DNA of 64,000 nucleotides, taken from contig JAFZPP010000038.1 of the NCBI GenBank assembly GCA_017550285.1, forward strand, positions 1 to 64,000, read 5' to 3'. Position numbers and translations under genes: made by a program. Position 1 is the first letter of the stretch; every line of letters starts with the position of its first letter. The stretch comes from Oscillospiraceae bacterium (GTDB lineage: Bacteria; Bacillota; Clostridia; Oscillospirales; Ruminococcaceae). This document shows positions 1 to 52,327 of this stretch, piece by piece. The notes under the pieces are model-generated. The model saw only the letters and a list, made by a program, of their open reading frames with translations. It made no database searches and was not told the DNA's origin.

Positions 1-200
1 CGGGGCGGTCGGGGGACATTGTGGGGACGCTGTCCCCACACCCCTGCCTAGGGGATACTATCCCCTAGGAACCCCGCTGCTGCTCCGTACCAGCCCCATA
101 AAGGGGCTGATGCGGAGCAGAAATGGGATTCTCAAGGGACAATGTCCCTTGAGCGGGAGTCTGAGGGCAGAGCCCTCAGAACATCTCTCAATCATCCCGC
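1..200 (+). repeat. Multi-hairpin intergenic repeat, copy 1
   Basis: A GC-rich non-coding block made of five consecutive palindromes: 22-38 (TGGGGAC/GTCCCCA), 47-69 (CCTAGGGGATA/TCCCCTAGG), 80-120 (a long two-part stem), 131-153 (CTCAAGGGAC/GTCCCTTGAG) and 161-179 (CTGAGGGC/GCCCTCAG). The reverse complement of 52138-52327 aligns along nearly its whole length. The central hairpin differs in sequence between copies while keeping its shape. The left end may lie outside the window. No ORF is credible here. The function is unknown. Candidates are a structured RNA, a transcription barrier or a small mobile element. Confidence 0.85.
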
Positions 201-235
201 CGGATTCCGTTTTCTCTTCGTACCAATCTAATAAT

Positions 236-270
236 GCAAAGCCCCGAAGTGCCTTTGAACACTTCGGGGC
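236..270 (-). terminator. Rho-independent terminator of the phosphofructokinase gene
   Basis: An 11-bp perfect stem (GCCCCGAAGTG/CACTTCGGGGC, 241-270) with an 8-nt loop sits 45 bp past the stop codon. On the minus strand it is followed by a weak T-rich tail. Confidence 0.7.
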
Positions 271-314
271 AAATCTTCTATATGGGTATCTGTCTGACCG
301 CTTCGGGCTGTTTC

Positions 315-1529
315 TTATTTCAGCAGCGACTCCTGAATCGTAAAATGCGCCGGTACGCCGTGGTTCATCTGAATCACCAGCTCACCCTGAATCAGCGGCA
401 TAAAATAGCCGAGTGCCTGATCGGTGATATTATTGCCTGCGGCGTTGATATATTCACGCGGCAGCGCCTTTTCGCAGTTTGCGACCTCCTTCGCATCGGC
501 GGTCTCAATCGTCACCGTATATGGCATATCGTTCAGACGGCGGAATACCATGACCTTGCCGGTCTCGCCGCGGAGTGCACAGCGGACGCCTGCCGAGCCG
601 ATTGCCTCGGATTCGTCGATATCGGTGCGCGAGCAAAGATGCGAGGAGCAGCGCTGCATGACATTCAGCTCGATTGAGCGCACCTTGCAGCCAATCTCCG
701 CACGGACCGCGCGTTCCAGATAGCTGCCGATGCCGGACAGATACTTATGTCCGAAATTATCCACAACGCCGGACTGCACGCCCTCCGGCACCTCAATGCC
801 CTCGGAAACGGCAACAATCACAGCCTTGTGCTTTGCCATTTCCTGCCGGACATCCTTCATAAACTTTTCCAGCGAGAAATCCGCCTCCGGAACATAAATC
901 AGATGCGGCGCAGCCTCGCCCAGACCGTGCAGCACCGCGCTCGAAGCGGTCAGCCAGCCTGCGTGTCTGCCCATGACCTCAACAATCGTCACGGACGGAA
1001 TGCTGTAAACGGAGCTGTCGCGGATGATCTCCTGCATCGTTGCAGCGACATATTTTGCCGCAGAGCCGAAGCCCGGCGTATGGTCGGTCACGCAGAGATC
1101 ATTGTCAATCGTCTTCGGGATGCCGATGATCTTAATGTCGATCTCCTGCTCGGCAAAATAGGCAGAGAGCTTCTGCACGGTATCCATGGAATCATTGCCG
1201 CCGATATAGAAGAATGCACCGATCTGCCGCTGCTGCATCGTCCGGAGAATGCGCTTGTAGACGCTTTCGTCCTCGTGCCAGTCCGGCAGCTTATAGCGGC
1301 AGGAGCCGAGCACTGTTGAGGGGGTCTGCCGCAGCAGCTCCATGTCCTCGTTCGTGAAGATCATCGTTTTCAGGTCGATCAGGTGGTTCTCGATCATGCC
1401 CTCAATGCCGTTGACAGAACCGAAAATCGCGTCGATCTCGGGTTCCTTCAAAGATTCCTTGAATACGCCGACAAGCGATGCATTGATCGCACAGGTCGGA
1501 CCGCCGGACTGCGCAACTGCTATATTCAT
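315..1529 (-). CDS. 6-phosphofructokinase, probably pyrophosphate-dependent
   Basis: A 404-aa enzyme phosphorylating fructose 6-phosphate to fructose 1,6-bisphosphate in cytoplasmic glycolysis. The N-terminus has the SGGPT phosphate-binding motif. Later come GGNDS, PKTIDND and MGRHAGW, all core PFK motifs. ATP-dependent enzymes have Gly in GGDGS and Gly in PGTIDND. Here the corresponding residues are Asp and Lys, the pair associated with PPi as phosphoryl donor, so a PPi-dependent enzyme is inferred. The ATG at 1529 was chosen because MNIAVAQSGG is the family N-terminus and GAGAGGGG precedes it by a good distance. An upstream in-frame start at 1556 lacks this. The gene is monocistronic, with its own promoter and terminator. 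Confidence 0.93.
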   Translation of the reverse strand: MNIAVAQSGGPTCAINASLVGVFKESLKEPEIDAIFGSVNGIEGMIENHLIDLKTMIFTNEDMELLRQTPSTVLGSCRYKLPDWHEDESVYKRILRTMQQRQIGAFFYIGGNDSMDTVQKLSAYFAEQEIDIKIIGIPKTIDNDLCVTDHTPGFGSAAKYVAATMQEIIRDSSVYSIPSVTIVEVMGRHAGWLTASSAVLHGLGEAAPHLIYVPEADFSLEKFMKDVRQEMAKHKAVIVAVSEGIEVPEGVQSGVVDNFGHKYLSGIGSYLERAVRAEIGCKVRSIELNVMQRCSSHLCSRTDIDESEAIGSAGVRCALRGETGKVMVFRRLNDMPYTVTIETADAKEVANCEKALPREYINAAGNNITDQALGYFMPLIQGELVIQMNHGVPAHFTIQESLLK

Positions 1530-1574
1530 ATGATTTACCCCTCTCAATCCGCACAAGCGGATTTTATCTATTTT

Positions 1575-1603
1575 ATTGTAGCATACTCACAGAGGAAAGT
1601 CAA
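1575..1603 (-). promoter_or_regulatory. Promoter of the phosphofructokinase gene
   Basis: On the minus strand TTGACT (1598-1603), a 17-bp spacer and TACAAT (1575-1580), with TGC directly before the -10. Confidence 0.75.
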
Positions 1604-1710
1604 TGCATCCAAGTTGTATTTATATCATTTATTGCTGCGTACAACTCATTTTTTGCGATTTTTGTCATGATTCACAATAAAACTGATGATTTACCTTTTT
1701 CCGGCGCAGC

Positions 1711-1745
1711 AAAAAGCCTCCGGCAGAGACCGGAGACTTTTTGAA
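1711..1745 (-). terminator. Terminator of the 1756-2334 gene
   Basis: Stem around CTCCGG/CCGGAG extended by AAAG/CTTT and flanked by A and T runs on both sides, so it could stop transcription in both directions. Confidence 0.75.
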
Positions 1746-1755
1746 TCAATCATAA

Positions 1756-2334
1756 TCAATGGATGCACATGCCGAGCACAAAGCCCGTTGCGAAATTATC
1801 CTCGCCGTTCGTGCTGATCGGAATCAGCTCACCGCCCTGCTTCTTGCAGGGAATCATTCTGACATTTTCAGCCTCTGCATAGAACTTGCAGATAACCTTG
1901 AGTCCGGAGGATTCAAATATGCCCATGATGCGCTTGCCGTTTGCATCGGGCTGGGAGCCGAGGATACCGTAATCGCGCAGACCGCTGTCTTCCTTATCCG
2001 CCTCTGCGCCGTCAATGATCAGCGTACCCTTGAATTTCTTATTGTTGCCTTCGATTTTGTGTCCGTTATACTCGGCAGAAAAGGTCTTGGTCTCCTTGTC
2101 GTACTCTGTTTCAAGCGGCTTTCCGACAATACAGGAGCAGTCGCCGTTTTCCAGATGAATCACAACAGAAAGCGTCGGATCGGTCGGAACCGTGCCGGTC
2201 AAGCCGACAGTCATATGAAGCCCCGCCTTGTTTTCCGCGATTGTCTGACCGTCAAAGCGCAGCTCCTCGTTGTCATCCGAGATCACTACAATATCATGAT
2301 CGTTCCATTTACCCGCAAAATACTGTGTAGCCAT
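1756..2334 (-). CDS. Conserved protein of unknown function
   Basis: A 192-aa acidic, apparently cytoplasmic protein without signal peptide or membrane segment. I do not recognise a family. The sequence is rich in alternating hydrophobic and polar residues, as in a beta-sandwich, and holds four scattered cysteines. AGAAGGAAGAG precedes the ATG. It is transcribed alone from the promoter at 2391-2419 and ends at a clear terminator. Confidence 0.7.
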   Translation of the reverse strand: MATQYFAGKWNDHDIVVISDDNEELRFDGQTIAENKAGLHMTVGLTGTVPTDPTLSVVIHLENGDCSCIVGKPLETEYDKETKTFSAEYNGHKIEGNNKKFKGTLIIDGAEADKEDSGLRDYGILGSQPDANGKRIMGIFESSGLKVICKFYAEAENVRMIPCKKQGGELIPISTNGEDNFATGFVLGMCIH

Positions 2335-2390
2335 TTTTTCTCTTCCTTCTTTTATTATGATAAAATATCGGACGGAATGTCCGTATGTTT

Positions 2391-2419
2391 ATTATAACAT
2401 ATCACAATGCAAAAATCAA
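2391..2419 (-). promoter_or_regulatory. Promoter of the 1756-2334 gene, member of a repeated promoter family
   Basis: Minus strand TTGATT (2414-2419), 17 bp, TATAAT (2391-2396). Spacer and flanks (CAGCTTG, TTTTTGC, ATATG) also match the promoters at 11284, 48839 and 61381, more than the promoter hexamers require. Confidence 0.75.
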
Positions 2420-2594
2420 GCTGAAACTGTATTTACGATGCATGTTTTCTGCCGGAGCGCTTTAGAGAAATGCGCAGTCCTGCATCATCACCAAAAGAAA
2501 GGCGAAACAAAATACCGGCGGGAGTTCCCCGCCCGCCTGCACGAAAATGCGCCGCTCAATCGTTTTATAAGTGAAGCGCGAATCAAATCCGCGC

Positions 2595-2634
2595 TGCATT
2601 GCGCAATGCAAACCATTCCGACAGGAGGTGATCC
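2595..2634 (+). promoter_or_regulatory. 16-bp palindrome and an extreme Shine-Dalgarno sequence before the sigma factor gene
   Basis: 2595-2610 is a perfect palindrome (TGCATTGC/GCAATGCA). AGGAGGTGATCC at 2623-2634 is complementary to 12 consecutive bases at the 3' end of bacterial 16S rRNA. The following in-frame codons run ACG (2638) to ATG (2665). The SD is ideally spaced for the ACG and too far from the ATG. The stretch 2420-2594 otherwise shows only a GC hairpin near 2518-2535. Confidence 0.6.
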
Positions 2635-2664
2635 GCCACGGATACACTCAGCTTTGAGGAAATC

Positions 2665-3213
2665 ATGACCGCAAACTACAATACCCTGCTCCGGATTGCC
2701 GTCCAGCATACCGGAAACCTTCCGGAGGCGGAGGATATCGTGCAGGAAACCTTCCTGCGGCTGCTCGAATCCGGCAGAAAATTCCGGAATCCGGAGCACG
2801 CAAAGGCGTTTCTCATCCGTTCGGCGGTCAACCGCTGCCTCGATTACCTCAAATCCGCCCGTCACCGGCAAAACATCGCCCTGACCGATGCAGCTGAAAA
2901 CATGCTTCCGGCTGACAGCGGCGGCTTCGGCAATGCGGAAACAGAGGCGGTTCTGGATGCGGTCGGACGGCTGCGCCCCGAATACCGGAATGTGATTTAT
3001 CTTTATTATTACGAAGAATATTCGATCAGGGAAATTGCGGCGATACTGCGAAAAAGCAGCAATACCGTCAGCTCATGGCTGACCAGAGCACGCAAACAGC
3101 TAAAGGAGGTTTTGCAGGATGAAGAATTCAGCTTATCGGAATGCCATGATGCAGATTTCCGCCGACAGAGAGGAGATTCTCATGAAAGCAAGAGAAATGC
3201 AGGCAAAATATGA
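2665..3213 (+). CDS. ECF-family RNA polymerase sigma factor
   Basis: A 182-aa protein that should direct RNA polymerase to a small regulon. Region 2 is seen in AEDIVQETFLRL and the following Arg-rich helix. Region 4 is seen in RPEYRNVIYLYYYEEYSIREIA, whose helix-turn-helix ends in SSWLTRARKQL. The start is uncertain. ATG 2665 has a modest GAGGA. The reading frame stays open upstream to an in-frame TGA at 2629, and the nine upstream codons from ACG 2638 encode DTLSFEEI, which fits the normal start of region 2. The last 95 bp overlap the next gene, which has its own AAAGGAGG. The overlap and order suggest a sigma/anti-sigma pair. Confidence 0.9.
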   Translation: MTANYNTLLRIAVQHTGNLPEAEDIVQETFLRLLESGRKFRNPEHAKAFLIRSAVNRCLDYLKSARHRQNIALTDAAENMLPADSGGFGNAETEAVLDAVGRLRPEYRNVIYLYYYEEYSIREIAAILRKSSNTVSSWLTRARKQLKEVLQDEEFSLSECHDADFRRQRGDSHESKRNAGKI

Positions 3214-4216
3214 TGCTGCGCATCCGGCGCGGCAGAAAGAGCGGCACGGCTTCCGCATCGGCATTGCAGCCGCGGCAGCGGTTCTGTTCTGCGGCACCGT
3301 GACGGCAGGTGCCGTCAGTGACTGGGATTATGCGGCGCTGTTCCGAAAATATTTCAGTGAGAAAGCCGGCACAGAAATCGACTATGATTTCTCCGGTATG
3401 GGCATCGACATCGGGGAAAGCTATCGGGGCGAGGGCTACACGCTGACCGTGGAGGCGGTGCTTGCAGATCAGACCGCAGTCTATCTGCTCTATGATATCG
3501 CGCTCGATGAATCCGTGCAGGCGCAGATCGCAGACAGCGAAATCATCAGCTTCCACGGCGGTCTGGGCAGCGGACTGAGCGATACAGGCGGCACCGGACA
3601 TCATGAGCCGCTCAACGAAGATGAAAACGGCGTCTGGCACGGCGTTTTCACCGCAGAGATCGACTACGGCACCGATCCCACCGCAAAGTCGCTGGATTAT
3701 TATCCCGGCTTAGTCATCATAGCACGCGAAAACGCCGAGACAATCATTCTGCCGCAGATCGGTGACGGCCATGCGCTCGGCTCGGTACCGCTGGCGGATA
3801 TTACCGTGCAGAAAGGCATCAAGCGCGATTGCAGCGTCACGCTGCCGGATGACATCAATCAGGTGGAATACACCTCGCTGTATCTCACACCGATGCAGCT
3901 CAAGCTCACGCGCACCGATCAGTTCTCTTACGATCAGCTCAGTCAGACGAACCGCAGCCTGCTGCCGACCATTCTCACGCAGGATGTCCGAACGGTTGAC
4001 GAGATCGTCTCGGACAGCTGCGCCCTGATCTTTGCAGACGGCTCCGAGCAGCCTGTGCAGGGCAGTTTCCAATGCAGCAGCGGCAGCACACGGAACGAAT
4101 ACGGCACCTACGATGTTGAGAGCGGTGCCATGATGATCTTCCGGACACCGGTTGACCTTGCAGAGGTCACCGCAGTCCGCATCGGAGACACCGTGATCGC
4201 AGTCACAGACGAATAA
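3119..4216 (+). CDS. Membrane-anchored probable anti-sigma factor
   Basis: 365 aa. A cytoplasmic N-terminal stretch of about 45 residues precedes one membrane segment (about 47-66, rich in Ala) and a long extracellular beta-rich part of about 290 residues. This is the layout of DUF4179-type anti-sigma factors encoded next to ECF sigma genes in Firmicutes. The inferred role is to hold the sigma factor until an envelope signal arrives. AAAGGAGG lies 9 bp before the ATG, inside the sigma gene. A strong hairpin terminator follows. Confidence 0.75.
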   Translation: MKNSAYRNAMMQISADREEILMKAREMQAKYDAAHPARQKERHGFRIGIAAAAAVLFCGTVTAGAVSDWDYAALFRKYFSEKAGTEIDYDFSGMGIDIGESYRGEGYTLTVEAVLADQTAVYLLYDIALDESVQAQIADSEIISFHGGLGSGLSDTGGTGHHEPLNEDENGVWHGVFTAEIDYGTDPTAKSLDYYPGLVIIARENAETIILPQIGDGHALGSVPLADITVQKGIKRDCSVTLPDDINQVEYTSLYLTPMQLKLTRTDQFSYDQLSQTNRSLLPTILTQDVRTVDEIVSDSCALIFADGSEQPVQGSFQCSSGSTRNEYGTYDVESGAMMIFRTPVDLAEVTAVRIGDTVIAVTDE

Positions 4217-4230
4217 TGCATCCATACAAA

Positions 4231-4265
4231 AGGCGCACCGCATAAACATACGGTGCGCCTCTTTA
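4231..4265 (+). terminator. Terminator of the sigma/anti-sigma operon, usable on both strands
   Basis: Stem GGCGCACCG/CGGTGCGCC with a 10-nt loop, followed by TCTTTA on the plus strand and TTTTGT on the minus strand. Confidence 0.8.
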
Positions 4266-4376
4266 TCTCCAAAGCGATGCTGCACGCTGCCCCTGAACCG
4301 AAAGCACTTCTTCGGGCAGCGTGACGCTCTGCCATACTGCCACTTTCCGTTCATCCGGAGCGCGGGTCGACCGCTT
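4231..4376 (-). ncRNA. Candidate small RNA in the 3' region of the symporter gene
   Basis: On the minus strand TTGCAA (4405-4410), 16 bp and TATAAT (4383-4388) lie just past the symporter stop codon. About 145 nt later comes the 4231-4265 terminator. Between them is a 9-bp perfect stem (4284-4292 with 4314-4322). No ORF is convincing. It resembles no RNA class I know (not SRP RNA, tmRNA or tRNA). It could equally be untranslated 3' sequence with a chance promoter. Confidence 0.35.
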
Positions 4377-4432
4377 GACAGTATTATATGCAGATTTGCG
4401 CAAATTGCAACAGGAAAAATCTGTCGCCTGCA

Positions 4433-5827
4433 TTATTTTTTTGCGGATTCCCTGTCCGCGCCGATCTTTGAGAGGACCTTTTTCTCGTTGTACCGCAGGA
4501 AGACGATGCCGCCCAGCAGACAGAGAACCACTGCCAGCAGCGCCGTCAGACGGTAGCCAAGTCCGTAGCCCGATTCGCCTGCCGGTGTATCTCTGCCGAT
4601 TACTGCAATGCTCGTAAACAGCAGCATTGCCGCCGACTGTCCCAGCTTAAAGGCAAAGGTGCGCGCCGCATAGAACATGCCCTGACGGCTCTCGCCGGTC
4701 TCCTGCTGATCCTCCTCGGAGATATCCGCGACAACCGCCTGCGGCAGGATGCCGAGAATCGCCATCGGGACCGCTGCCAGCGCCGCGACAATCACACCGT
4801 ATGCAACCGGAGGAATCGCGGTCTTGCCTGCGAACGATGTCACTGCAAAGGCGACGGAAAAAAATGCAAACGCAAAGACAATCAGCTTCTTTTTTCCGAT
4901 CTTCTTCGAGACGATGTTGACGACCGGATAGCATACCAGACTCAGCGCGGTCATCACGGCGAACAGCGGAAACGTCATCGAATCCGAAAGCCCCATGAGC
5001 ACAGTGATATAGAAGGGCAGTCCCGTCTGGAACAGCGTCAGTCCGATCCAGTAGAGAATATCGGAGCAGACGAAGATGCGGAAATCCTTGTTTTTGAAGG
5101 TTGCCGCCAGCGAGCGGAACGCCGAAGTCTTGCTCGGCGTCGTATCGGCATAGACCTGCTCGTCAATCAGAAATGCCGGAATCAGCATACAGATGACGGC
5201 AACCGCCGCAAGAATCCCGATTGTAATGCGATAGCTGCCTGCATATCCGGCAGCATCCATAAAGATGCCGGCGATATTCGGCACCAGATAGGCAATCGCC
5301 GTGCCAAAGAAATAGGTCACGGAAATGAACGTCGAAAGATTGATGCGCGCTTCCTGCGTTCTGCCGAGCTCCGGAATGAGCGCGTTATAGGGTGTGCAGT
5401 AGCAGGTCATGCAGAGATAAAAGAGCATCGCGCAGAGGAACAGACAGACCGTATTGACCGTGCTCTCGCCCTTCACCGGCGAACAGAACATCAGCACCGT
5501 CACCAGCCCGAACGGAATCGCAGCAAAGCGCATGAACGGGATGCGCCGCCCGAGCCGATGCGTACAGCGGTCGGATTTGCCTGCGATCAGCGGATCGGTC
5601 ACGGCATCGAACACTCTGCCGATTGCCGTAATCAGACCGATTGCCGTCAGCCCGAGGAAGGTTCCCTGCGGGATAAATTCAAGCTGACCGTTCGCAAGCT
5701 CCTGCTTGCTCGGCTGAAAGAAAAAGACAAGCCAGTTCGCAATAATACCGGACAGAATCGACCAGCCGAACTGTCCGATTGCAAAGATCCATAAAATACT
5801 ATTTGCGGCGGTTTTCTTCTCCTTCAT
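4433..5827 (-). CDS. GPH/MFS-type sugar:cation symporter
   Basis: A 464-aa inner-membrane protein with about 12 hydrophobic segments. The motifs DAVTDPLIAGKSDR near residue 75 and LGRRIPFM after it mark the glycoside-pentoside-hexuronide:cation symporter family (MFS_2), which imports oligosaccharides or glycosides with Na+ or H+. The substrate cannot be read from sequence. The ATG at 5827 is preferred over 5833 because AAGGAG is then 7 bp away. The first 29 bp overlap the end of the TetR gene, so the two are probably translationally coupled and regulated together. Confidence 0.88.
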   Translation of the reverse strand: MKEKKTAANSILWIFAIGQFGWSILSGIIANWLVFFFQPSKQELANGQLEFIPQGTFLGLTAIGLITAIGRVFDAVTDPLIAGKSDRCTHRLGRRIPFMRFAAIPFGLVTVLMFCSPVKGESTVNTVCLFLCAMLFYLCMTCYCTPYNALIPELGRTQEARINLSTFISVTYFFGTAIAYLVPNIAGIFMDAAGYAGSYRITIGILAAVAVICMLIPAFLIDEQVYADTTPSKTSAFRSLAATFKNKDFRIFVCSDILYWIGLTLFQTGLPFYITVLMGLSDSMTFPLFAVMTALSLVCYPVVNIVSKKIGKKKLIVFAFAFFSVAFAVTSFAGKTAIPPVAYGVIVAALAAVPMAILGILPQAVVADISEEDQQETGESRQGMFYAARTFAFKLGQSAAMLLFTSIAVIGRDTPAGESGYGLGYRLTALLAVVLCLLGGIVFLRYNEKKVLSKIGADRESAKK

Positions 5828-6479
5828 TTGCATTCTCCTTCCTGAGATAGCTCACTGCCATAGCAGCCAGCATTTCCAGTTCGGCTCTTCCGCTGCCGAA
5901 ATCATCAGAGGGAAGCAGCTCGCCGCAGAGCATCTTTTTGCAGAGCGAGAGCATGGAATGACCGAAGGTCAGATAAAACAGCTTGAAATCAATATCCGAC
6001 CGGACCGTGCCGTCCGCGACGCCGGCGAGATATGCAGATTCCATGTAAGGGTAGAAATTGATGATCGAGCGCTCATAATCAAAGAGCGCCGCCTTCGGAA
6101 CATTCTCGTGCTGGAGCATCAGATCGAATTCGCCGACCAGCCGCATCAGATCTCTGTGCGTATCAAACAGCACCAGATACATATGCATCAGATCAGACAG
6201 ACGCTTGATGCCGCTTTGCCGGAGAAACACCTCCGATTCAAAGACATGTTCATACATGCCGCGCAGCATGTTCCAGAGATGTGTCATAGCCGCGATTGTG
6301 ATTGTCGTTTTTGTGCCGAAGTAGCGATAGAGCGTTGCAACGCCGACGCCGCATGCATCTGCAATATCCGTCATCTTGACGGCTTCAATGCCGTTGCGGA
6401 GAAACATCTCGGCGCTGATCTCAACTGCACGCTCAATCCGCTTTGTTTTGAGACTTTCCTGCGCATGTTGATTTTCCAC
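5799..6479 (-). CDS. TetR/AcrR-family transcriptional regulator
   Basis: 226 aa. The N-terminal helix-turn-helix is visible at about residues 15-60 (MTDIADACGVGVATLYRYFGTK). The rest is a helical ligand-binding domain. The start is GTG with AGGAGG 8 bp upstream. It is the first gene of an operon with the symporter and is divergent from the glycosyltransferase-like gene at 6598. Two inverted repeats in the shared intergenic region are probable operators, so it likely represses both directions until an inducer, perhaps the transported sugar, is bound. Confidence 0.9.
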   Translation of the reverse strand: MENQHAQESLKTKRIERAVEISAEMFLRNGIEAVKMTDIADACGVGVATLYRYFGTKTTITIAAMTHLWNMLRGMYEHVFESEVFLRQSGIKRLSDLMHMYLVLFDTHRDLMRLVGEFDLMLQHENVPKAALFDYERSIINFYPYMESAYLAGVADGTVRSDIDFKLFYLTFGHSMLSLCKKMLCGELLPSDDFGSGRAELEMLAAMAVSYLRKENANEGEENRRK

Positions 6480-6496
6480 TTGACAAACCTCCTATT

Positions 6497-6579
6497 TTGT
6501 GATAGACTATATATCAAATATAATAGTACGGCTATCATATCATACTGATAGTATAGCATATTATTTTTACATTTGTCAA
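6497..6579. promoter_or_regulatory. Divergent promoters with two TetR-operator-like dyads
   Basis: Plus promoter: TTGTGA (6497-6502), 16 bp, TATAAT (6519-6524). Minus promoter: TTGACA (6574-6579), 18 bp, TATACT (6550-6555). TGATA-N7-TATCA (6500-6516) overlaps the plus promoter. CTATCA-N8-TGATAG (about 6532-6551) overlaps the minus -10. The two dyads share the same half site, fitting control by the adjacent TetR protein. Confidence 0.7.
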
Positions 6580-6597
6580 GTAGGAAGGCGTGAAAAT

Positions 6598-8049: not shown

Positions 8050-8065
8050 GTTCCATATAAAACAA

Positions 8066-43899: not shown

Positions 43900-43907
43900 C
43901 AGATACA

Positions 43908-43940: not shown

Positions 43941-43957
43941 CTTCATAATTTTACGGG

Positions 43958-44392: not shown

Positions 44393-44430
44393 GTATTGCT
44401 CCTTTCACACAGAATTCACATCTGTATACT

Positions 44431-44459
44431 ATTATATCACAACTGATTTGCGAATGCAA
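44431..44459 (-). promoter_or_regulatory. Promoter of the Rrf2 gene
   Basis: Minus strand TTGCAT (44454-44459), 17 bp, TATAAT (44431-44436). GAATTCTG lies just downstream and recurs after the nifS -10. Confidence 0.75.
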
Positions 44460-44610
44460 GCAATTTTCGCATGGCAATCTCACGTTTTTTGTACAGAAAA
44501 ACGCATCCGATTCTTGCAAAACATACAAAATCTGTATGCTTACAGTGTATTCCGGAATCCGTCTGCGGATACGGGAATACATGATGATCCGCACAAAAAG
44601 GAGAACCCAT

Positions 44611-45783
44611 ATGCCGACACTTTCCTCCAGAACCGCCGGTTTTACCGATTCGGTCATCCGCAGAATGACGCGGATATCCAATCAGTTCGGCGCGGTCAAT
44701 CTTTCGCAGGGCTTTCCGGATTTCGATCCGCCGAAAGCAATCCTCGACCGGCTCGCAGAAGTCACGCGCGAGGATTTTCACCAGTATTCGATCACATGGG
44801 GCGCGCAGAATTTCCGCGAGGCGCTCGCCGCAAAATACGAACACTTCGCGGGCAGGGCAATCGACCCGAACGGCGAGATTGTCGTCACCTGCGGCAGCAC
44901 CGAAGCCATGATGGCGGCGATGATGAGCGTGACCAATCCCGCCGACAAGGTGATCGTCTTCTCGCCGTTCTATGAGAATTACGGCGCAGATACGATTCTT
45001 TCCGGCGCAGAGCCGATCTATGTCCCGCTGATTCCGCCCGCATTCACATTCGACGCGGATGTCCTCGAGGCTGCATTCCGGCAGCATCCGAAGGCACTGA
45101 TTCTCTGCAATCCCTCCAATCCCTGCGGCAAGGTCTTTACCCGTCAGGAACTGGAGGTCATTGCAGACCTCGCAAAGAAATATGACACCTTTGTCATCAC
45201 GGACGAGGTCTATGAGCATATTCTCTATCAGCCGCATCGGCATACTTATCTGGCAACGCTGCCCGGCATGTGGGAGCGCACGATTCAGTGCAGCTCGCTC
45301 AGCAAAACCTATTCGATTACCGGCTGGCGGCTCGGTTATGTCATCGCTGCGCCGGAGATCATTGAGACCGTCAAGAAGGTGCATGATTTCCTGACAGTCG
45401 GTGCTGCGGCACCCTTGCAGGAGGCGGCGGTCACGGGTCTGCGCTTCGGCGACGATTATTATATGGCATTGCAGCAGGAATATACCGAAAAGCGTGATCT
45501 GTTCCTTAAAGGACTTGACCGGATCGGCATTGCGCATACGGTGCCGGAGGGCGCATACTATATTCTGCTCGATATTTCGGAATTCGGCTATGCAAACGAT
45601 CTGGAATTTTGCGAGCTGCTTGCGGAAAAGGTCGGCGTCGGCGCGGTGCCGGGCTCGAGCTTCTTCAGGGAATCCGAAAACCGCTACATCCGGCTGCATT
45701 TTGCAAAAAAACAGCAAACACTCGAGGACGCACTCAGCCGCCTTGCCGATATCCGCAAAAGAATGCCTGTCAGGCAGCGCTGA
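44611..45783 (+). CDS. Class I/II pyridoxal-phosphate aminotransferase
   Basis: 390 aa, cytoplasmic. NLSQGFPDFD near residue 30, NPSNPCGK, DEVYEHILY and the lysine of SSLSKTYSITGWRLGY (Schiff base with PLP) are fold-type I aminotransferase motifs. The N-terminus resembles aspartate or methionine/kynurenine aminotransferases. The substrate is not assignable by eye. AAAAGGAG precedes the ATG. The promoter for 44460-44610 is unclear. Confidence 0.9.
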   Translation: MPTLSSRTAGFTDSVIRRMTRISNQFGAVNLSQGFPDFDPPKAILDRLAEVTREDFHQYSITWGAQNFREALAAKYEHFAGRAIDPNGEIVVTCGSTEAMMAAMMSVTNPADKVIVFSPFYENYGADTILSGAEPIYVPLIPPAFTFDADVLEAAFRQHPKALILCNPSNPCGKVFTRQELEVIADLAKKYDTFVITDEVYEHILYQPHRHTYLATLPGMWERTIQCSSLSKTYSITGWRLGYVIAAPEIIETVKKVHDFLTVGAAAPLQEAAVTGLRFGDDYYMALQQEYTEKRDLFLKGLDRIGIAHTVPEGAYYILLDISEFGYANDLEFCELLAEKVGVGAVPGSSFFRESENRYIRLHFAKKQQTLEDALSRLADIRKRMPVRQR

Positions 45784-45892
45784 GTTTTATATTTCCCCTT
45801 CGGCGAATGACCGTGAGGCGAGTTTTTTGCGCACCCTGCCGGCGATACCGCATAAATGCAATCCTGTTTCACCAGAAATTTTACTTTGCCTA

Positions 45893-45921
45893 TTGACAAA
45901 GTAGGAAAAACGTGTTATAAT
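45893..45921 (+). promoter_or_regulatory. Promoter of the nifS-iscU-mnmA operon
   Basis: TTGACA (45893-45898), 17 bp, TATAAT (45916-45921). The leader has a hairpin CTGCTGT/ACAGCAG (45940-45960) preceded by GAATTCTG, a possible Rrf2 site. Confidence 0.85.
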
Positions 45922-45998
45922 GTGCTTACTGCAAGAATTCTGCTGTAATTATCACAGCAGATGCGTTATATCATCTATGAAACAGGAGGCTTCTGTCC

Positions 45999-47186
45999 AT
46001 GATCTATGCGGATAACGCTGCAACAACCAAAGTCAGCGAAGCGGCGCTCGCGGCAATGCTCCCCTGCCTGACGCAGGTCTACGGCAACCCTTCGAGCCTG
46101 TATGCCTTCGGTCAATCCGCGAAGGAACAGCTTGAGGATGCCCGTGCACGCATCGCACGCTGCCTGCATGCCGACCCGAAGGAGATCACCTTCACATCCG
46201 GCGGCAGTGAAGCGGATAATCAGGCACTGCGCACCGCAGCGGCGCTCGGTGCAAAAAAAGGAAAAAAGCATATCATCTCGACCGCGTTTGAGCATCATGC
46301 GATTCTGCATACGCTCGACGCACTCAAAAAGGAAGGCTTCGAGATCACGCTGCTCGATGTCCACGAAAACGGACTGATTACAGCGCAGCAGGTCGCGGAG
46401 GCAATCCGTCCCGATACGGCACTTGTCACGGTGATGTTTGCGAACAACGAGATCGGTACCGTGCAGCCGATTGCAGAAATCGGCGCGGTCTGCCGCGAAA
46501 AGGGCGTGCTGTTCCATACGGATGCCGTGCAGGCGGCAGGACATCTGCCGATTGACGTACAGGCTATGCAGATCGACATGCTCTCGCTCTCCGGACATAA
46601 ATTTCACGGTCCGAAGGGCACCGGCGTACTCTATGCCAGAAAGGGCATCCGGCTCGAAAACCTGATCTACGGCGGCGCTCAGGAACGCAATAAGCGCGCA
46701 GGTACGGAAAATCTTCCCGCGATTGCCGGTATGGCGGCGGCGCTTGAGGAAAGCGTCGCGCATCTCAGTGAGACGACAGAGAAGCTCATCCGGCAGCGCG
46801 ACAGACTGATCAGGGGACTGTCCGAGATTCCGCACAGCACCTTAAACGGGGATGCCGTGCACCGGCTCCCTTCCAATGTCAATTTCTGCTTTGAGGCAAT
46901 CGAAGGCGAATCGCTGCTGCTTCTGCTCGACGATAAAGGCATCTGTGCCTCCTCGGGCAGCGCGTGCACATCCGGTTCGCTCGATCCGAGCCATGTGCTG
47001 CTGGCAATCGGCAGACCGCATGAGGTCGCGCACGGTTCGCTGCGGCTTTCGCTCGGCGAGGATATTACCGATGATGAGATTGATTATCTGATTGCATCGG
47101 TCAAAGACGTTGTCACATATCTGCGGAACATGTCGCCGGTCTGGCGCAGTCTGAATGAGGGAAAGCAGCCGTTCGTGCTGCCGTAA
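45999..47186 (+). CDS. nifS: Cysteine desulfurase
   Basis: 395 aa PLP enzyme that removes sulfur from cysteine to a persulfide for Fe-S clusters and tRNA thiolation. DNAATTK start, LSGHKFHGPKG with the PLP lysine, and SSGSACTSG with the active cysteine are clear. AGGAGG precedes the ATG. It leads an operon with the scaffold protein and MnmA. Confidence 0.95.
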   Translation: MIYADNAATTKVSEAALAAMLPCLTQVYGNPSSLYAFGQSAKEQLEDARARIARCLHADPKEITFTSGGSEADNQALRTAAALGAKKGKKHIISTAFEHHAILHTLDALKKEGFEITLLDVHENGLITAQQVAEAIRPDTALVTVMFANNEIGTVQPIAEIGAVCREKGVLFHTDAVQAAGHLPIDVQAMQIDMLSLSGHKFHGPKGTGVLYARKGIRLENLIYGGAQERNKRAGTENLPAIAGMAAALEESVAHLSETTEKLIRQRDRLIRGLSEIPHSTLNGDAVHRLPSNVNFCFEAIEGESLLLLLDDKGICASSGSACTSGSLDPSHVLLAIGRPHEVAHGSLRLSLGEDITDDEIDYLIASVKDVVTYLRNMSPVWRSLNEGKQPFVLP

Positions 47187-47208
47187 TATCGGGAGGAGAT
47201 GCTTTACT

Positions 47209-47652
47209 ATGGCACTTTACAGTGAAAAGGTTATGGACCACTTCCGCAATCCGCGGAATGTCGGCGTCATCGAAAATGCCGACGGCGTCGGCGAGGTCGG
47301 CAACGCCAAGTGCGGCGATATCATGAAAATCTATCTGAAAATCACGGGAGAACAGGGCAGCGAGATCATCGAGGATGTCAAGTTCGAGACCTTCGGCTGC
47401 GGCAGCGCAATCGCATCGAGCTCTATGGCAACCGAGCTGATCGCAGGCAAGCCGCTTTCCGAGGCGCTCACGCTGACGAACAAAGCCGTCACCGAGGCAC
47501 TCGACGGTCTGCCGGCACATAAGCTGCACTGCTCCGTGCTCGCGGAGGAAGCAATCAAGGCGGCAGTCAAGGATTACTACGATAAAAACGGCATCGCCTA
47601 TGATCCGGAACAGTTCCGCGAGGGGGACGAACCGCATTGCTGCGGAGATTAA
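47209..47652 (+). CDS. iscU: Fe-S cluster scaffold protein (IscU/NifU N-terminal type)
   Basis: 147 aa. The three cluster cysteines are in NAKCGD, TFGCGSA and LHCSVLAEEA, followed by a CC near the end. It receives sulfur from the neighbouring desulfurase. ATG 47209 has GGGAGGAG upstream. It follows nifS by 22 bp. Confidence 0.95.
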   Translation: MALYSEKVMDHFRNPRNVGVIENADGVGEVGNAKCGDIMKIYLKITGEQGSEIIEDVKFETFGCGSAIASSSMATELIAGKPLSEALTLTNKAVTEALDGLPAHKLHCSVLAEEAIKAAVKDYYDKNGIAYDPEQFREGDEPHCCGD

Positions 47653-47668
47653 CGGAGAATCAAACAAT

Positions 47669-48742
47669 ATGGCAAAGGCATTGATCGCAATGAGCGGCGG
47701 CGTGGATTCAAGCGTCGCCGCACATCTGACATTGCAGGCAGGCTATGAGGGCATCGGCTGCACGATGCGGCTCTATGACAACGAGGATGCGGCAGTCTCC
47801 GGCGAGAGCACCTGCTGCTCGCTCGATGATGTCGAGGATGCAAGGGCTGTCGCTTTCCGGCTCGGTATGCCGCATTATGTATTCAATTTCACGGAGGCGT
47901 TCCGCAGACAGGTGATCGGCAAGTTCATCCGCTGTTATCAGTGCGGCAAAACGCCGAATCCCTGCATTGAATGCAACCGGTATCTGAAATTTGAAAAGCT
48001 GCTCGAACGCGCACAGGTGCTCGGCTGCGACAAGATCGTCACGGGGCATTATGCACAGGTTGTTGAGACCGATTCCGGTTTTCAGCTCCGCCGCGGTGCC
48101 GATGCCTCAAAGGATCAGAGCTATGTGCTCTATATGCTGACGCAGGAACAGCTAAAGCATATCCTGCTGCCGCTCGGCGGACTGACAAAGACGGAAGTGC
48201 GCCGGATTGCAGAGGCACAGGGCTTTGTCAATGCACACAAATCCGATTCGCAGGATATCTGCTTTGTGCCGGACGGCGACTATGCGCGCGTCATTCAGGC
48301 ACATACCGGCGAAACACCCGCCGCGGGTGATTTTGTAGATTTGCAGGGCAATGTCATCGGGCAGCATCAGGGTCTGATTCACTATACGGTCGGACAGCGG
48401 CGCGGTCTCGGCATTGCAATCGGCAAGCCTGCATATGTCTGCGGTCTGGATGTGCCGCGGAACCGCGTGATTATCGGCACAAACGATGATCTTTTTACCG
48501 ATACCTGCACCGTCGAAGCGGTCAACTGGATTGCCGGTGCGCCGCCGCAGGAACCCGTGCGATGTCAGGCGAAAATCCGCTACCGGCATCCGGCACAGCC
48601 TGCAACGGTCACATTCACGGACGAACACACCGCCGTGCTGAAATTCGATGCATCGCAGCGCGCAATCACTGCCGGACAGGCTGCCGTATTCTATGACGGA
48701 GAGATCGTGCTCGGCGGCGGCGAAATCCGTTCCGTGCCGTAA
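47669..48742 (+). CDS. mnmA: tRNA-specific 2-thiouridylase
   Basis: 357 aa. It thiolates U34 of Lys, Glu and Gln tRNAs. The SGGVDSS PP-loop at residues 9-15, NPCIECN with the first catalytic cysteine and DSQDICFVPDGDY with the second are visible. ATG 47669 is set by the family start MAKALIAMSGG, with GGAG upstream. It is last in the sulfur operon, which supplies its sulfur. Confidence 0.95.
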   Translation: MAKALIAMSGGVDSSVAAHLTLQAGYEGIGCTMRLYDNEDAAVSGESTCCSLDDVEDARAVAFRLGMPHYVFNFTEAFRRQVIGKFIRCYQCGKTPNPCIECNRYLKFEKLLERAQVLGCDKIVTGHYAQVVETDSGFQLRRGADASKDQSYVLYMLTQEQLKHILLPLGGLTKTEVRRIAEAQGFVNAHKSDSQDICFVPDGDYARVIQAHTGETPAAGDFVDLQGNVIGQHQGLIHYTVGQRRGLGIAIGKPAYVCGLDVPRNRVIIGTNDDLFTDTCTVEAVNWIAGAPPQEPVRCQAKIRYRHPAQPATVTFTDEHTAVLKFDASQRAITAGQAAVFYDGEIVLGGGEIRSVP

Positions 48743-48750
48743 TATATGAT

Positions 48751-48788
48751 GAAATCCCCGATGATACGTTTCATCGGGGATTATTTTG
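48751..48788 (+). terminator. Terminator of the nifS operon
   Basis: 12-bp stem AATCCCCGATGA/TCATCGGGGATT with a 6-nt loop, then ATTTTG. Confidence 0.82.
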
Positions 48789-48838
48789 TATCCTGGCTTT
48801 TTTCGCAGTTCGTTTTTTCAAAGATTGCTTCTCTCAGC

Positions 48839-48867
48839 TTGCTTTTTGCGTAATAATATGATATAAT
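48839..48867 (+). promoter_or_regulatory. Promoter of trmB, member of a repeated promoter family
   Basis: TTGCTT (48839-48844), 17 bp, TATAAT (48862-48867). Together with upstream GATTGCTT and CTCAGC it matches the minus-strand promoter at 11284-11312 over more than 45 bp. Confidence 0.82.
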
Positions 48868-48907
48868 AGAATGGATTATACAATTACAAGAATAAGGAAC
48901 GATTGCT

Positions 48908-49744
48908 ATGAGAATCCGATTCAAAAAATGGGCAAGACCTGAGCTCGCCGCATCACCGTTCTGCATGGATAACGCATTTGCACTCGCCGGAACATGGCGG
49001 CAGCAGTTCGCAAAACCCGATCAGCCGTTTTATGTCGAGCTCGGCTGCGGCAAGGGCGGCTGGGTCTCGCAGGCAGCCGTGCTGCATCCCGAAAACAATT
49101 ACCTCGCGCTGGATATCAAATCCGAGATGCTTGCCGTCGCCAAGCGCAAGACCGAGCAGGCATTCGCCGATGCAGGCAGAGAGCCGGACAATATCCGCCT
49201 TTCGATCCTGAATATCGAGCGCATCTCCGAGGTGCTCAAACCCGAGGACGGTGTAGACCGCATCTATATCAATTTCTGCAATCCGTGGCCGAAAGAAGGC
49301 CATAAAAAGCGCCGCCTGACGCATCCGCGGCAGCTCCGGCAGTATGCGGCGATCCTGCGCGGCGAACTGCATTTCAAAACCGATGACTGCGATCTCTTCA
49401 CCGAATCTATCGAATATTTCGAGCAATCCGGCTGGGAGATTCTGACGAAGAGCTTTGATCTGCATGCAGATGAGCCTGCTGACAATATCCGCACGGAGCA
49501 TGAGAATATGTTTACGGAAATGGGCAAGAAAATCCATTTCCTGATTGCCAAACCGCCGGCAGATGCCTTCGGAAAACCCGTTCCGAATCTGCACGCGCCG
49601 GATACGGTCAAGCTGTTTCATGCACTGGAAAAGCAGCGCATGCTCGGCATCCTGACAGAGGAGCAGTTCGAGCAGCGCAAACGTGAAATCCTCGGAGAAC
49701 CGGAGGAGGTACCGCATGACGAGGGAATGGAAGTGGAAAAGTAA
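48908..49744 (+). CDS. trmB: tRNA (guanine-N7)-methyltransferase with SHOCT-like tail
   Basis: 278 aa. The SAM site ELGCGKGGW near 45-53 and NPWPKEGHKKRRLTHP near 120 are TrmB motifs; it methylates G46 of tRNA. The family is usually about 215 aa. The extra C-terminal stretch contains KLFHALEKQRMLGILTEEQF, which reads like a SHOCT helix-turn-helix found in membrane-associated or oligomerising proteins. AAGGAA precedes the ATG. The last 29 bp overlap the next small gene. Confidence 0.88.
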   Translation: MRIRFKKWARPELAASPFCMDNAFALAGTWRQQFAKPDQPFYVELGCGKGGWVSQAAVLHPENNYLALDIKSEMLAVAKRKTEQAFADAGREPDNIRLSILNIERISEVLKPEDGVDRIYINFCNPWPKEGHKKRRLTHPRQLRQYAAILRGELHFKTDDCDLFTESIEYFEQSGWEILTKSFDLHADEPADNIRTEHENMFTEMGKKIHFLIAKPPADAFGKPVPNLHAPDTVKLFHALEKQRMLGILTEEQFEQRKREILGEPEEVPHDEGMEVEK

Positions 49745-49979
49745 ATCCGGCAAGGCATATTTTCATGCCGGATGCGGAACACAGGACGCCGTCGGCGCAG
49801 AAAAGCCGAGCGAAGCAATCCCCTTGCAGGAAGGCGTCCGGCTGCTCTTCGGCAGAGGCGTCGATCATGTCTGGTTTCTCTCGCTGATTGCCGGTCTGCT
49901 CGCGCTGCTGCTGCCGCGCAAAAAACATCGGCGCAGAAAGCTCAGAAGCAATCTGGCAAAAATCAGACGGACGTTCTGA
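49716..49979 (+). CDS. Small single-pass membrane protein
   Basis: 87 aa. A basic start, one membrane helix (VWFLSLIAGLLALLLP, about 52-67), then a highly basic tail. ATG 49716 has GGAGGAGG upstream and overlaps trmB. Unknown function, probably translated with trmB. Confidence 0.55.
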   Translation: MTREWKWKSKSGKAYFHAGCGTQDAVGAEKPSEAIPLQEGVRLLFGRGVDHVWFLSLIAGLLALLLPRKKHRRRKLRSNLAKIRRTF

Positions 49980-50016
49980 GGGTCCTGATACAGCGGGCAA
50001 AGCGGAAGGCGGTCTT

Positions 50017-50778
50017 ATGATGGAAATGAATGTTTGCCCGTTCTGCGGGCAGGGACGAATCTTCAAGGTCAGACTGAAAACGGATATCAGCAGATACTCC
50101 GGCAGCCAGATGATTCGGCTCTGCGATGAATGTGACGGTATCTGGAAACCGGACGAGCCGATTACCGGACATACCGGAGCGTCCGTACATGTGCTGGCGG
50201 AAATGCTCGGGCTTCCGGAGGAGCAGTTATGGGATGACATGAAAATCGTACAGATTGAGCTGCTGTATGCGGATACAGAAAAGACGCTTCGGATCACTGA
50301 TTTCCAGTCCGGCGGCAGTCATTCGGATTTTACTGCCGCGGATACGCTCTGGGGACAAAAGCTCCGGATTGATGTTTCCTTCTCGGAGACGCTCGGCAAA
50401 ACTGCGGAAACGCTTGCGGCAGCGCTGCCGGCAATCAGCAACAAGCTGGCATTTCTCGAAGAACTGGAGGACAACATCCGGCAGTGTACCGCTTACCGGC
50501 ATCTGGATCAGCTTGCAGCGGAACAGCTCAGTACGCGCGCAAAGAACGAAGACGGCAAAACGGTCACGCTTGCGGACGGCAGCACCGTTCCGGCTGATGT
50601 GACACCTGAATGCTTCATGAAAAGCCTGTATCCCGTTGAGATGCGCTTTCTGTTTCAGGACAGCACAGAGCGCAGTCAGGCTGATCTTTTACTCGGCTGC
50701 AAGCCCGATTATTTCGCAGGGCGCCGCATCCGTATCAGTATCAATGAACAATACCGGATCGAATGCGAGGGCATCTGA
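50017..50778 (+). CDS. Unknown two-part protein with zinc-ribbon start
   Basis: 253 aa, soluble, acidic. The N-terminal CPFCG and later CDEC fit a zinc ribbon. The C-terminal part (about 105-253) ends in a beta pattern (RISINEQYRIECEGI) that recalls DUF2262-type domains found among polymorphic-toxin immunity proteins. This likeness is tentative. GGAAGGCGG precedes ATG 50017. It sits between the trmB group and pyrC. Confidence 0.55.
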   Translation: MMEMNVCPFCGQGRIFKVRLKTDISRYSGSQMIRLCDECDGIWKPDEPITGHTGASVHVLAEMLGLPEEQLWDDMKIVQIELLYADTEKTLRITDFQSGGSHSDFTAADTLWGQKLRIDVSFSETLGKTAETLAAALPAISNKLAFLEELEDNIRQCTAYRHLDQLAAEQLSTRAKNEDGKTVTLADGSTVPADVTPECFMKSLYPVEMRFLFQDSTERSQADLLLGCKPDYFAGRRIRISINEQYRIECEGI

Positions 50779-50825
50779 AAGCCGGCGCACCCGATCTGAA
50801 CAAGCAATAAAGGAGGCTGGTTCCC

Positions 50826-52094
50826 TTGGAGACCATACTCATCCGCAGCGTCCGCGCGGCTGACAGCCTGCGGGACGCCGTCTGCGATATTCTCCTGAAA
50901 GACGGCAGAATCGCCGGAATCGGGGAGAATCTCACTGTCGCGGCAGACCGTGTCATCGACGGCACAGGACTTGCCGCACTGCCGGGACTCTTCGATATGC
51001 ATGTGCATTTCCGCGATCCCGGTCAGACGCAGAAGGAGGATGTCAATACCGGCACTGCCGCAGCCCTTGCAGGCGGTGTCACAGGCGTACTCTGTATGCC
51101 GAATACCGTCCCGCCGATGGACAATCCGGCGCAGGTACGTGAATTTCTCGCACGCGCCGCAAAGACCGGCGTAGATGTACATCAGGCGGGTACGCTGACC
51201 GTCGGACTGAAAGGCGAAGAACTCGCCGATTATGAAGCACTCAAAAAAGCCGGCGTCACAGCGCTCTCCGATGACGGCAGACCCGTCCCGACGGCTGCGA
51301 TGATGAAGGAAGCACTTATCAAAGCAAAAGCTGCCGGACTGCCCGTTGTCTCGCACTGCGAAGATTTGGCGATCATCAACAGCGGCATTATCAACAAGGG
51401 CGCTGTCTCCGAAGCGCTCGGCGTCAAGGGTATGGACCGCCGCTCTGAGGATTCGATCACGGAGCGTGACCTGCAAATGGCGCTCGAAACCGGCGCACAG
51501 CTCCATATCTGCCATGTCTCGACGCGCGGCAGTACGGACGCCGTCCGGAAGGCAAAGGCGGCAGGCGGCAATGTCTCCTGCGAGACCGCGCCGCATTACT
51601 TCCTGCTGACCGACGAGCTGCTCCTGAAGCGCGATGCCGATTACCGGATGAATCCGCCGCTGCGCACGCCCGATGACGTCGCAGCGATCAAGGAGGGCAT
51701 CCTCGACGGCACAATCGACTGCATCATCACCGACCACGCGCCGCATACCGCAAAGGAGAAAGCAAACTTTGAAACCGCACCGAACGGCGTTGTCGGGCTC
51801 GAAACCTCGCTCGCCGCGACACTGACCGTATTTTATCATACGGGGCTGCTTTCCCTGCAGGATATCGTGAAGCTGATGAGCGACAATCCGCGCAGACTGC
51901 TGCATCTGCCGGAGCGGACGCTCTCTGAAGGTCAGCCCGCCGATCTGATCCTCGTTGATCTGAACCGCAAGTGGACGGTCGATCCCGATAAGCTGCATTC
52001 CCGTTCGCACAATACCGTGTTCAAGGGCATGACGTTCACCGGCAAAGTACTCAAAACGATCACCGGCGGCGTGGTGCGCTATGAGGCACAATAA
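50826..52094 (+). CDS. pyrC: Dihydroorotase
   Basis: 422 aa. It cyclises N-carbamoyl-aspartate to dihydroorotate in pyrimidine synthesis. MHVHFRDPG (metal ligands) near 60, SDDGRPV, SHCED, CHVST and DHAPHT are the type I dihydroorotase motifs. TTG start with AAAGGAGG 9 bp upstream. No other pyr gene is in the window. Confidence 0.95.
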   Translation: METILIRSVRAADSLRDAVCDILLKDGRIAGIGENLTVAADRVIDGTGLAALPGLFDMHVHFRDPGQTQKEDVNTGTAAALAGGVTGVLCMPNTVPPMDNPAQVREFLARAAKTGVDVHQAGTLTVGLKGEELADYEALKKAGVTALSDDGRPVPTAAMMKEALIKAKAAGLPVVSHCEDLAIINSGIINKGAVSEALGVKGMDRRSEDSITERDLQMALETGAQLHICHVSTRGSTDAVRKAKAAGGNVSCETAPHYFLLTDELLLKRDADYRMNPPLRTPDDVAAIKEGILDGTIDCIITDHAPHTAKEKANFETAPNGVVGLETSLAATLTVFYHTGLLSLQDIVKLMSDNPRRLLHLPERTLSEGQPADLILVDLNRKWTVDPDKLHSRSHNTVFKGMTFTGKVLKTITGGVVRYEAQ

Positions 52095-52137
52095 CCCTCT
52101 TTCAGGTGGTGCACTCCTGCGGTAAACCATAGGTTGA

Positions 52138-52327
52138 CGGGATGATTGAGAGACGCTCTGAGGGCTCTGCCCTCAGACTCCCGCTCAAGGGACACTGTCC
52201 CTTGAGCATCCCATTTCAAGTTTTGCCTGCCCCATACGGGGCAGACAAAACTTGCAGCGGGGTGCCTAGGGGATAGTATCCCCTAGGCAGGGGGGCAGCG
52301 TCCCCACAATGTCACCCGACCGCCCCG
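52138..52327 (-). repeat. Multi-hairpin intergenic repeat, copy 2 (inverted)
   Basis: Reverse complement of the element at 1-200. Palindromes at 52158-52176, 52184-52206, 52217-52254, 52265-52287 and about 52291-52306. The outer palindromes are nearly identical to copy 1. The central one has a different basal stem (CAAGTTTTG/CAAAACTTG instead of CTGCTCCG/CGGAGCAG) but the same apical GCCCC/GGGGC. It begins 44 bp after pyrC and could double as its terminator. The rest of the gap to 52444 shows nothing else. Confidence 0.85.

Follow-up and report, generated by a model that had tools for sequence, protein, structure and literature searches.

Palindromic miniature elements of a Ruminococcus-type genus and the terminator-like hairpins duplicated around sibling copies

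Described palindromic elements and the present family

The YPAL (RU-2) repeats of Yersinia are intergenic, palindromic sequences of ~168 bp that are not TA-ended and carry target-site duplications of 3–26 bp, with targets spanning or lying beside dyad symmetry and recent mobility known from empty and filled sites (De Gregorio et al. 2006, as summarised in the relevant passages of PMC2229807). We describe here a repeat family represented by two inverted copies in a window of 64,000 nucleotides (positions 1 to 64,000 of contig JAFZPP010000038.1, assembly GCA_017550285.1, Oscillospiraceae bacterium), which by analogy appears to work like YPAL and EFAR, the closest known systems. EFAR of Enterococcus faecalis, reportedly described by Venditti and colleagues in 2007, is said to consist of modular palindromic miniature elements at unrelated stem-loops of 24–37 bp, and to keep parts of the target stems at its ends with most of the target stem-loop deleted. 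Compared by description rather than by sequence, EFAR is alike in its modular palindromic build and stem-loop target; it differs in that the target stem-loop is mostly deleted there and is duplicated whole in intact copies here.

The likeness to YPAL, also one of description rather than sequence, lies in the intergenic position, the palindromes, the variable duplications and the targets of dyad symmetry. Within what the passages of PMC2229807 give for YPAL, the present family differs in that the duplication is a complete terminator-like stem-loop of 24–34 bp, flush with both ends, and in that its inverted repeats reach the ends, whereas those of YPAL are internal. BrickBuilt of Porphyromonas gingivalis is an intergenic miniature inverted-repeat transposable element (MITE) with target duplications of varying length; it is longer and built around a minisatellite, and duplication of a terminator hairpin is not described in the relevant parts of PMC4596501. 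The RUP and BOX MITEs of Streptococcus pneumoniae have terminal inverted repeats and target duplications, and SPRITE of the same species is enriched near gene 3′ ends (PMC3049150, in part); RUP inserts at TA (PMC2229807, in part). All three are, as here, small non-autonomous interspersed repeats, but hairpin-length duplication is not described for them in those passages of PMC3049150 and PMC2229807. In Escherichia coli, 446 of 4072 REPs, a minority, lie within 15 nt of stop codons (PMC12306157, in part). REP, BIME and REPIN elements share with the present family a palindromic, extragenic nature, high copy number and some positions near stop codons, whereas long inverted repeats, target duplications and the lack of a Y1 transposase in the own genome set the present family apart. 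Group IIC introns insert beside terminator stem-loops and, to our knowledge, make no target duplication; they share the terminator stem-loop neighbourhood and differ in the lack of duplication, the elements here being non-coding inverted repeats. Among the papers listed in a survey of the literature, none was seen to describe this repeat family, which does not prove absence.

The window copies are probably a non-autonomous, MITE-like mobile element, whose siblings target terminator stem-loops and duplicate the whole hairpin. Copies of the family are short, non-coding and dispersed, with terminal inverted repeats; they are present or absent at orthologous sites, and target-site duplications are present in sibling copies of relatives, as would befit the small non-autonomous mobile element that the initial annotation had listed among its options. 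Full copies are long inverted repeats of ~230–260 bp, whose arms carry palindromes A and B around a variable centre. Each half-module runs from an end region through palindrome A (arms usually of 6–9 pairs, loop of 3), a spacer usually of 6–8 nt and palindrome B (usually 10 pairs, loop of 3) to AATCCCATTT or a variant. Between facing halves lies a hairpin, as in the window, or ~50–150 nt of other sequence; the centre of L023 and L182 resembles an intrinsic terminator (L numbers denote individual loci, G000 the own genome and other G numbers its relatives). Single halves also exist: in 80 of at least 113 loci from GTDB, 49 modules were paired, 53 single and 11 cut off. A nested repeat, in which a short palindrome (TGAATTTGCAGGCAAATTCA with CGCTTCGCATG) sits inside the palindrome A loop, was seen in several copies of G008 (L146, L150–L154).

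The family is widespread in one Ruminococcus-type genus of bacteria from gut and rumen. Searches of the own and related genomes, as the initial annotation had recommended, returned many further copies rather than just the two of the window. In the own genome blastn gave 37 matches, some being both strands of one copy, and a covariance model (R1), likewise proposed there, scored 150 of 1204 candidates and gave at least 53 half-module matches at E ≤ 0.01. Of 41 genomes compared, the own one and 22 of its 24 relatives within the genus had matches, against 0 of 16 same-order genomes of other families; the family itself was represented in that set by this genus alone. Scanning GTDB contigs for a pattern gave at least 113 stretches, and the 80 inspected were named Ruminococcus, Oscillospiraceae, Clostridiales or Clostridia and mostly marked as metagenome-assembled genomes, genus being judged by assembly name only. 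Phage and plasmid collections held no match to window positions 1–220, and a pattern scan of IMG/VR gave 0 matches.

Flanking hairpins and target duplications of sibling copies

Ends of the sibling subfamilies follow the pattern CAGnYTGTMGAnAAAG, which was found in 25 of 30 genus genomes (9 with a single match; G006, G016, G019, G022 and G024 had none) and most often in G008 (172 matches), the reversed pattern giving 3 matches over all 30. CAG...CTG ends lay flush with a stem-loop at 165 of 210 distinct ends, against 1 of 419 control windows. These hairpins had a median length of 28, were terminator-like with an A-rich outer side in 140 of 165 cases, and differed in sequence from site to site; insertion at or beside sequence-unrelated stem-loops is thus a trait that the sibling subfamilies have in common with YPAL and EFAR. 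Looser hairpin rules gave 61 of 68 and 40 of 45 ends, and another gave 159 of 173. A strict regular expression for end regions, which yielded 6 pairs only, was not used.

In seven single-contig sibling copies the target duplication is a complete stem-loop of 24–34 bp. Five copies lie between direct whole-hairpin repeats of 32 (G043), 32 (G023), 30 with 1 mismatch (G043), 29 (G023) and 24 bp (G023), the row for L229, which has a false left end, being left out of this count; two further repeats are of 34 bp with 2 mismatches (L325, G023, after pfkA) and 31 bp (L552, G021). Target-site duplications, which the earlier note had advised looking for, were therefore found in sibling copies in the form of a repeat of the whole hairpin. 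Bacterial transposon target-site duplications are usually fixed and short, since the distance between the transposase cuts determines their length. In the sibling copies the length varies with the target hairpin, an indication of structure-guided cutting; a duplicated palindrome of varying length is most simply explained if each strand is cut at one hairpin foot and filled in.

Pairs of ends were also compared for shared flanking hairpins. Within one genome, 25 of 8804 pairs shared a hairpin of at least 19 nt (four genomes; a 9-nt match was left out), and between genomes 0 of 6074. Five of the 25 are single-contig copies, one is L464, where the hairpin lies between two elements, and some are near-identical; with L464 left out, 17 shared hairpins were perfect, of which 13 were across contigs. 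Some cross-contig flanking hairpins have a further element on their outer side. When a second copy of the flanking hairpin was sought inward of 75 ends, up to 7 kb or to the end of the available stretch (often much less), the furthest lay at 373 bp. L147, L044, L459 and L464 are arrays in which element ends adjoin a terminator-like hairpin on either side, which suggests that one terminator was hit by insertion more than once.

A second multi-hairpin non-coding repeat, with an unrelated interior (AAAAGTTTCGGTCAAGCCTTTTCAAAGGCTTG...), was observed at L552:155–379 (G021:C35) and in L325. In both it has the same CAG...CTG termini and lies between two hairpin copies, and L325 starts with an end region of the present family; similar interiors were seen in L101, L102, L108, L149, L159 and L162. 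That one terminus set serves at least two unrelated multi-hairpin interiors suggests that the machinery may recognise the ends and the target structure, not the target sequence.

Several observations weigh against a mobile element that duplicates its target hairpin. Under one looser hairpin rule the control count was appreciable (29 of 184 windows, against 39 of 46 ends). Among the seven whole-hairpin copies, L325 and L552 have the different interior with the same termini, and the direct repeat of L140, at 10 bp, is short and lacks a hairpin. Both ends lay in one contig for 11 real elements, and in 4 of these the hairpins of the two sides differed; two of these four are short (93 and 134 bp), and two (L044, L459) have further element ends adjoining. 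A direct-repeat test that required CA...TG ends gave a repeat in just 3 of 61 full copies, that of L044 being internal, and whole-hairpin duplication was seen for no own-genome copy; since the test made this requirement, it carries little weight for own-genome copies such as L002, L003 and L006, in which the CAG ends are unrecognisable. By eye, L002 and L003 have terminators at a distance of ~25–35 nt. Of 315 distinct flanks, 173 could be classified for distance to a stop codon (frame of at least 80 codons), and 49 of these ends lie 0–12 nt after one, 4 of the 49 having the terminal motif. Lastly, no transposase was found as mobiliser among the families tested (Y1, DDE_Tnp_1 and Cas1).

Copy-specific outer inverted repeats were scored in 61 copies, with L001 left out as it has no left flank; 13 lay above the 95% level set by cross-copy pairs, and 12 above the 99% level. 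L127 is among them as a whole-hairpin direct repeat, and the rest are read as possible remnants of target arms.

The terminal inverted repeats, together with direct repeats of 10 bp in L140 and 9 bp in L167, could also suit a miniature element derived from a DDE insertion sequence, with a short duplication of the ordinary kind and the hairpins as mere target preference. We regard this as unlikely, given that duplications of 24–34 bp that follow hairpin length are unlike a fixed short stagger and that PF01609, the sole DDE family tested, is absent from four genomes, including the own genome and G008. An alternative reading of L167 is a hairpin copy that has lost part of its length, the hairpin being intact on one side and, by eye, represented by its last ~20 bases on the other.

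The window copies and their paired changes

Window positions 1–199 aligned with the reverse complement of 52138–52327 at 84% identity by blastn, and the near end-to-end alignment reported in the initial annotation is real. The palindromes and the replaced basal stem of the central hairpin, CTGCTCCG...CGGAGCAG in copy 1 versus CAAGTTTTG...CAAAACTTG in copy 2 (Table 1), were also as described there; to call the four outer palindromes nearly unchanged was slightly too strong, palindrome A at ~52290–52305 of copy 2 being damaged. Both copies fold far below shuffles (z −9.0 to −9.5, 0 of 200 shuffles equally low), and copy 2 is predicted to fold into a tree with side hairpins, its two arms pairing in part through their spacers. 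R1, whose matches are the modules common to window and sibling copies, scored 78.2 and 85.8 bits in copy 1 and 82.2 and 42.2 bits in copy 2. Both window copies belong to a diverged subfamily without a readable target duplication, and the hairpin-duplication model would extend to them from the sibling copies.

The first base of copy 1 is base 1 of contig C46 of the own genome, whose 50-contig assembly has eight contig ends inside copies (C2, C4, C14, C20, C25, C38, C46 and C48). The contig edge truncates copy 1 on its left, and the distance of 52 kb therefore delimits no unit. Copy 2 is longer than the aligned part: its inverted repeat reaches CAG at 52103 on one side and CTG at 52361–52363 on the other, and its real span of ~52103–52363 lies directly 3′ of the pyrC stop codon. 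pyrC was found at 28 genus loci, the own included, with G007 unreadable; in the 26 readable relatives no end-profile match (E ≤ 0.1) occurred within 700 nt after the pyrC stop, the position of which is less certain in the most distant of them. In G012, the nearest relative at pyrC (94% identical protein), ~75 nt separate the stop from the next start. With no element at this site in 26 relatives, copy 2 looks like a lineage-specific insertion. After pfkA (named by reading of the sequence), an end-profile match was found at 8 of 27 loci (G000, G012, G001, G044, G006, G013, G023 and G008), that of G008 being weak (E 0.015) and cut by a contig end; G018 was unreadable here, and G045, with little sequence available, shows the start of the second multi-hairpin repeat.

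The inverted orientation of the window copies relative to each other had also raised the idea of paired sites for inversion of the intervening 52 kb. We give this next to no chance: copies are spread over many contigs, copy 1 lies at an assembly break, and copy 2 looks lineage-specific, with no element after pyrC in the readable relatives.

Table 1. Coordinates of the element copies and adjoining features in the window
Feature	Position	Strand	Basis
Element copy 1, left end missing, right end approximate	1..218	+	L002 matches 93% over 1–243, others to ~213–222
Palindrome A, left arm, copy 1	20..40	+	Palindrome detection
Palindrome B, left arm, copy 1	47..69	+	Palindrome detection; R1 match 21–79
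Central hairpin, copy 1, basal stem CTGCTCCG/CGGAGCAG	80..120	+	Sequence, fold, central-hairpin comparison
Palindrome B, right arm, copy 1	131..153	-	Palindrome detection; R1 match 121–179 minus
Palindrome A, right arm, copy 1	160..180	-	Palindrome detection
pyrC (dihydroorotase), named by reading of the sequence, no family-library look-up	50826..52094	+	Open reading frame; matches in 28/30 genus genomes, own included
CCCTCTTT, left flank flush with CAG end; possible remnant of target-hairpin arm (suggestive only)	52095..52102	.	
Full element copy 2, CAG...CTG, 261 bp	52103..52363	-	No element at site in 26 readable relatives
Palindrome A (GAGGGC type), copy 2	52157..52177	+	Palindrome detection (L013 1520–1540)
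Palindrome B, copy 2	52184..52206	+	Palindrome detection; R1 match 52158–52216
Central hairpin, copy 2, basal stem CAAGTTTTG/CAAAACTTG	52217..52254	-	Sequence, fold, central-hairpin comparison
Palindrome B, other arm, copy 2	52265..52287	-	Sequence; R1 match 52255–52307 minus
Palindrome A (GGGGAC type), other arm, copy 2, damaged	52290..52305	-	Sequence; no A+B module detected for this arm (L013)
AAAGGGAC, right flank flush with CTG end; partly complementary to 52095–52102 (suggestive only)	52364..52371	.	

Downstream of copy 1, at window positions 240–290 (L001), a hairpin GCCCCGAAG...CTTCGGGGC followed by TTCTATAnGGGTATC is common to three own-genome copies, the other two being L004 and L005.

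Replacement of both stem arms with pairing preserved, from which a maintained structure had been argued, is real and recurs in further copies. Across 30 half-modules (29 distinct; rows pre-picked by palindrome detection), 98.1% of 522 cells pair and 84 cells are changed on both sides, slid controls pairing at 33–54%; 9 of 18 pairs change on both sides, compared with 6.5 in shuffles, 7 of 500 of which were as high. The 23 distinct central hairpins, from a set restricted to candidates paired at 12 or more of 15 positions, fall into ~7 basal-stem types by our own grouping. Concerted change of both arms of a palindrome can also arise by template-switch repair, so that pairing-preserving replacement is no proof of selection on structure.

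Selection on RNA should favour G–U over A–C mispairs. In 217 palindromes located by sequence landmarks, the 2170 cells comprised 2063 Watson–Crick, 23 G–T, 36 A–C and 48 other combinations; where the sense strand was known, downstream of a stop codon, the counts were 772, 1, 4 and 3, respectively, with 14 B palindromes of more than 3 mismatches left out. Central hairpins, a set chosen for pairing and counted on an arbitrary strand, gave 8 G–T and 18 A–C. As there is no G–T excess, the signal looks DNA-level rather than RNA-level, and the paired changes fit DNA palindromes kept by a DNA hairpin function or by template-switch arm correction. Rfam gave 0 matches in the window at gathering score, and the 21 matches obtained at E up to 5 were all below gathering scores, 13 being to microRNA models. 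A structured RNA family, that is a 3′ untranslated region element or cis-regulator kept by selection on RNA folding, would be in keeping with the very stable folds of both window copies, the high pairing of the half-modules relative to their controls and the 49 of 173 classifiable ends close behind stop codons. It is nonetheless very unlikely, in view of the G–T and A–C counts (the known sense strand included), the Rfam result and the presence or absence of copies between orthologous sites.

The mobilising enzyme and a proposed model of insertion

Three protein families were tried as mobiliser and rejected. Y1_Tnp (PF01797) was absent from G000 and G008 and found in 3 of 26 genus genomes (G001, G015 and G023), a set that left out G043 and G045; DDE_Tnp_1 (PF01609), the IS4/IS5-type transposase, was found in 0 of 4 genomes; and Cas1 (PF01867) was absent from G008 and G045, the two genomes with most terminus matches, whose assemblies are 92% and 82% complete, respectively. 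Cas1 occurred in 7 of 14 genomes, G023 and G043 among them, with a partial match in G000. Since all three are absent from the 92% complete G008, the enzyme probably lies outside these families.

Dispersal by a Y1 transposase (TnpA-REP or IS200/IS605), as for REP/BIME-like palindromes, would be consistent with repeats that are intergenic, palindromic, modular and often near stop codons, and the loaded genome G023 does have a Y1 match. The absence of Y1_Tnp from the own genome and G008, its occurrence in 3 of 26 genus genomes, and the long inverted repeats with whole-hairpin duplications, which are unlike single-strand Y1 insertion, make such an origin extremely improbable.

Ends were paired at 200 nt or less in 132 of 134 cases, too short for a transposase; the exceptions were L267 (324 nt) and L234 (2.4 kb). 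In L234:3264–5699 (Ruminococcus sp. UBA4275, DGVV01000132.1), the two halves face inward around 2.4 kb that hold four small open reading frames, two of which encode similar 119 aa proteins, HEAT-like by eye. Pfam gave one weak match for these frames (DUF2065, E 0.23) and no transposase, and L234 is possibly a cargo-bearing copy. The smallest relative contigs were of 3004 and 3019 b, and autonomous copies on shorter contigs could be missed.

For the insertion of this mobile element we put forward a tentative model, which we hold at somewhat less than even chances: a hitherto undescribed integration system would read the DNA structure of intrinsic terminators and cut at the feet of the extruded hairpin, so that the duplication is the hairpin and bidirectional termination survives. 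A trans-acting integrase would recognise the terminator palindrome extruded as hairpins and nick each strand at one foot of its hairpin; the element would be joined at the nicks, and gap filling would then duplicate the whole hairpin. The product would read A-tract, hairpin, element, hairpin, T-tract. Because each direction would meet a hairpin and then T residues, neighbouring genes should keep a terminator, and insertion would be nearly neutral for termination. The element would become part of the 3′ untranslated region of the neighbouring genes, and later loss of one, gene-side, hairpin copy could leave its ends adjoining stop codons.

For repeats in general, the family carries the caution that pairing-preserving changes need not signal RNA function. 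The model is testable for palindromic repeats near bacterial gene ends and offers a route to a structure-specific integrase. Each insertion would bring its own spare terminator, which would be a simple reason for the high numbers reached in genomes such as G008.

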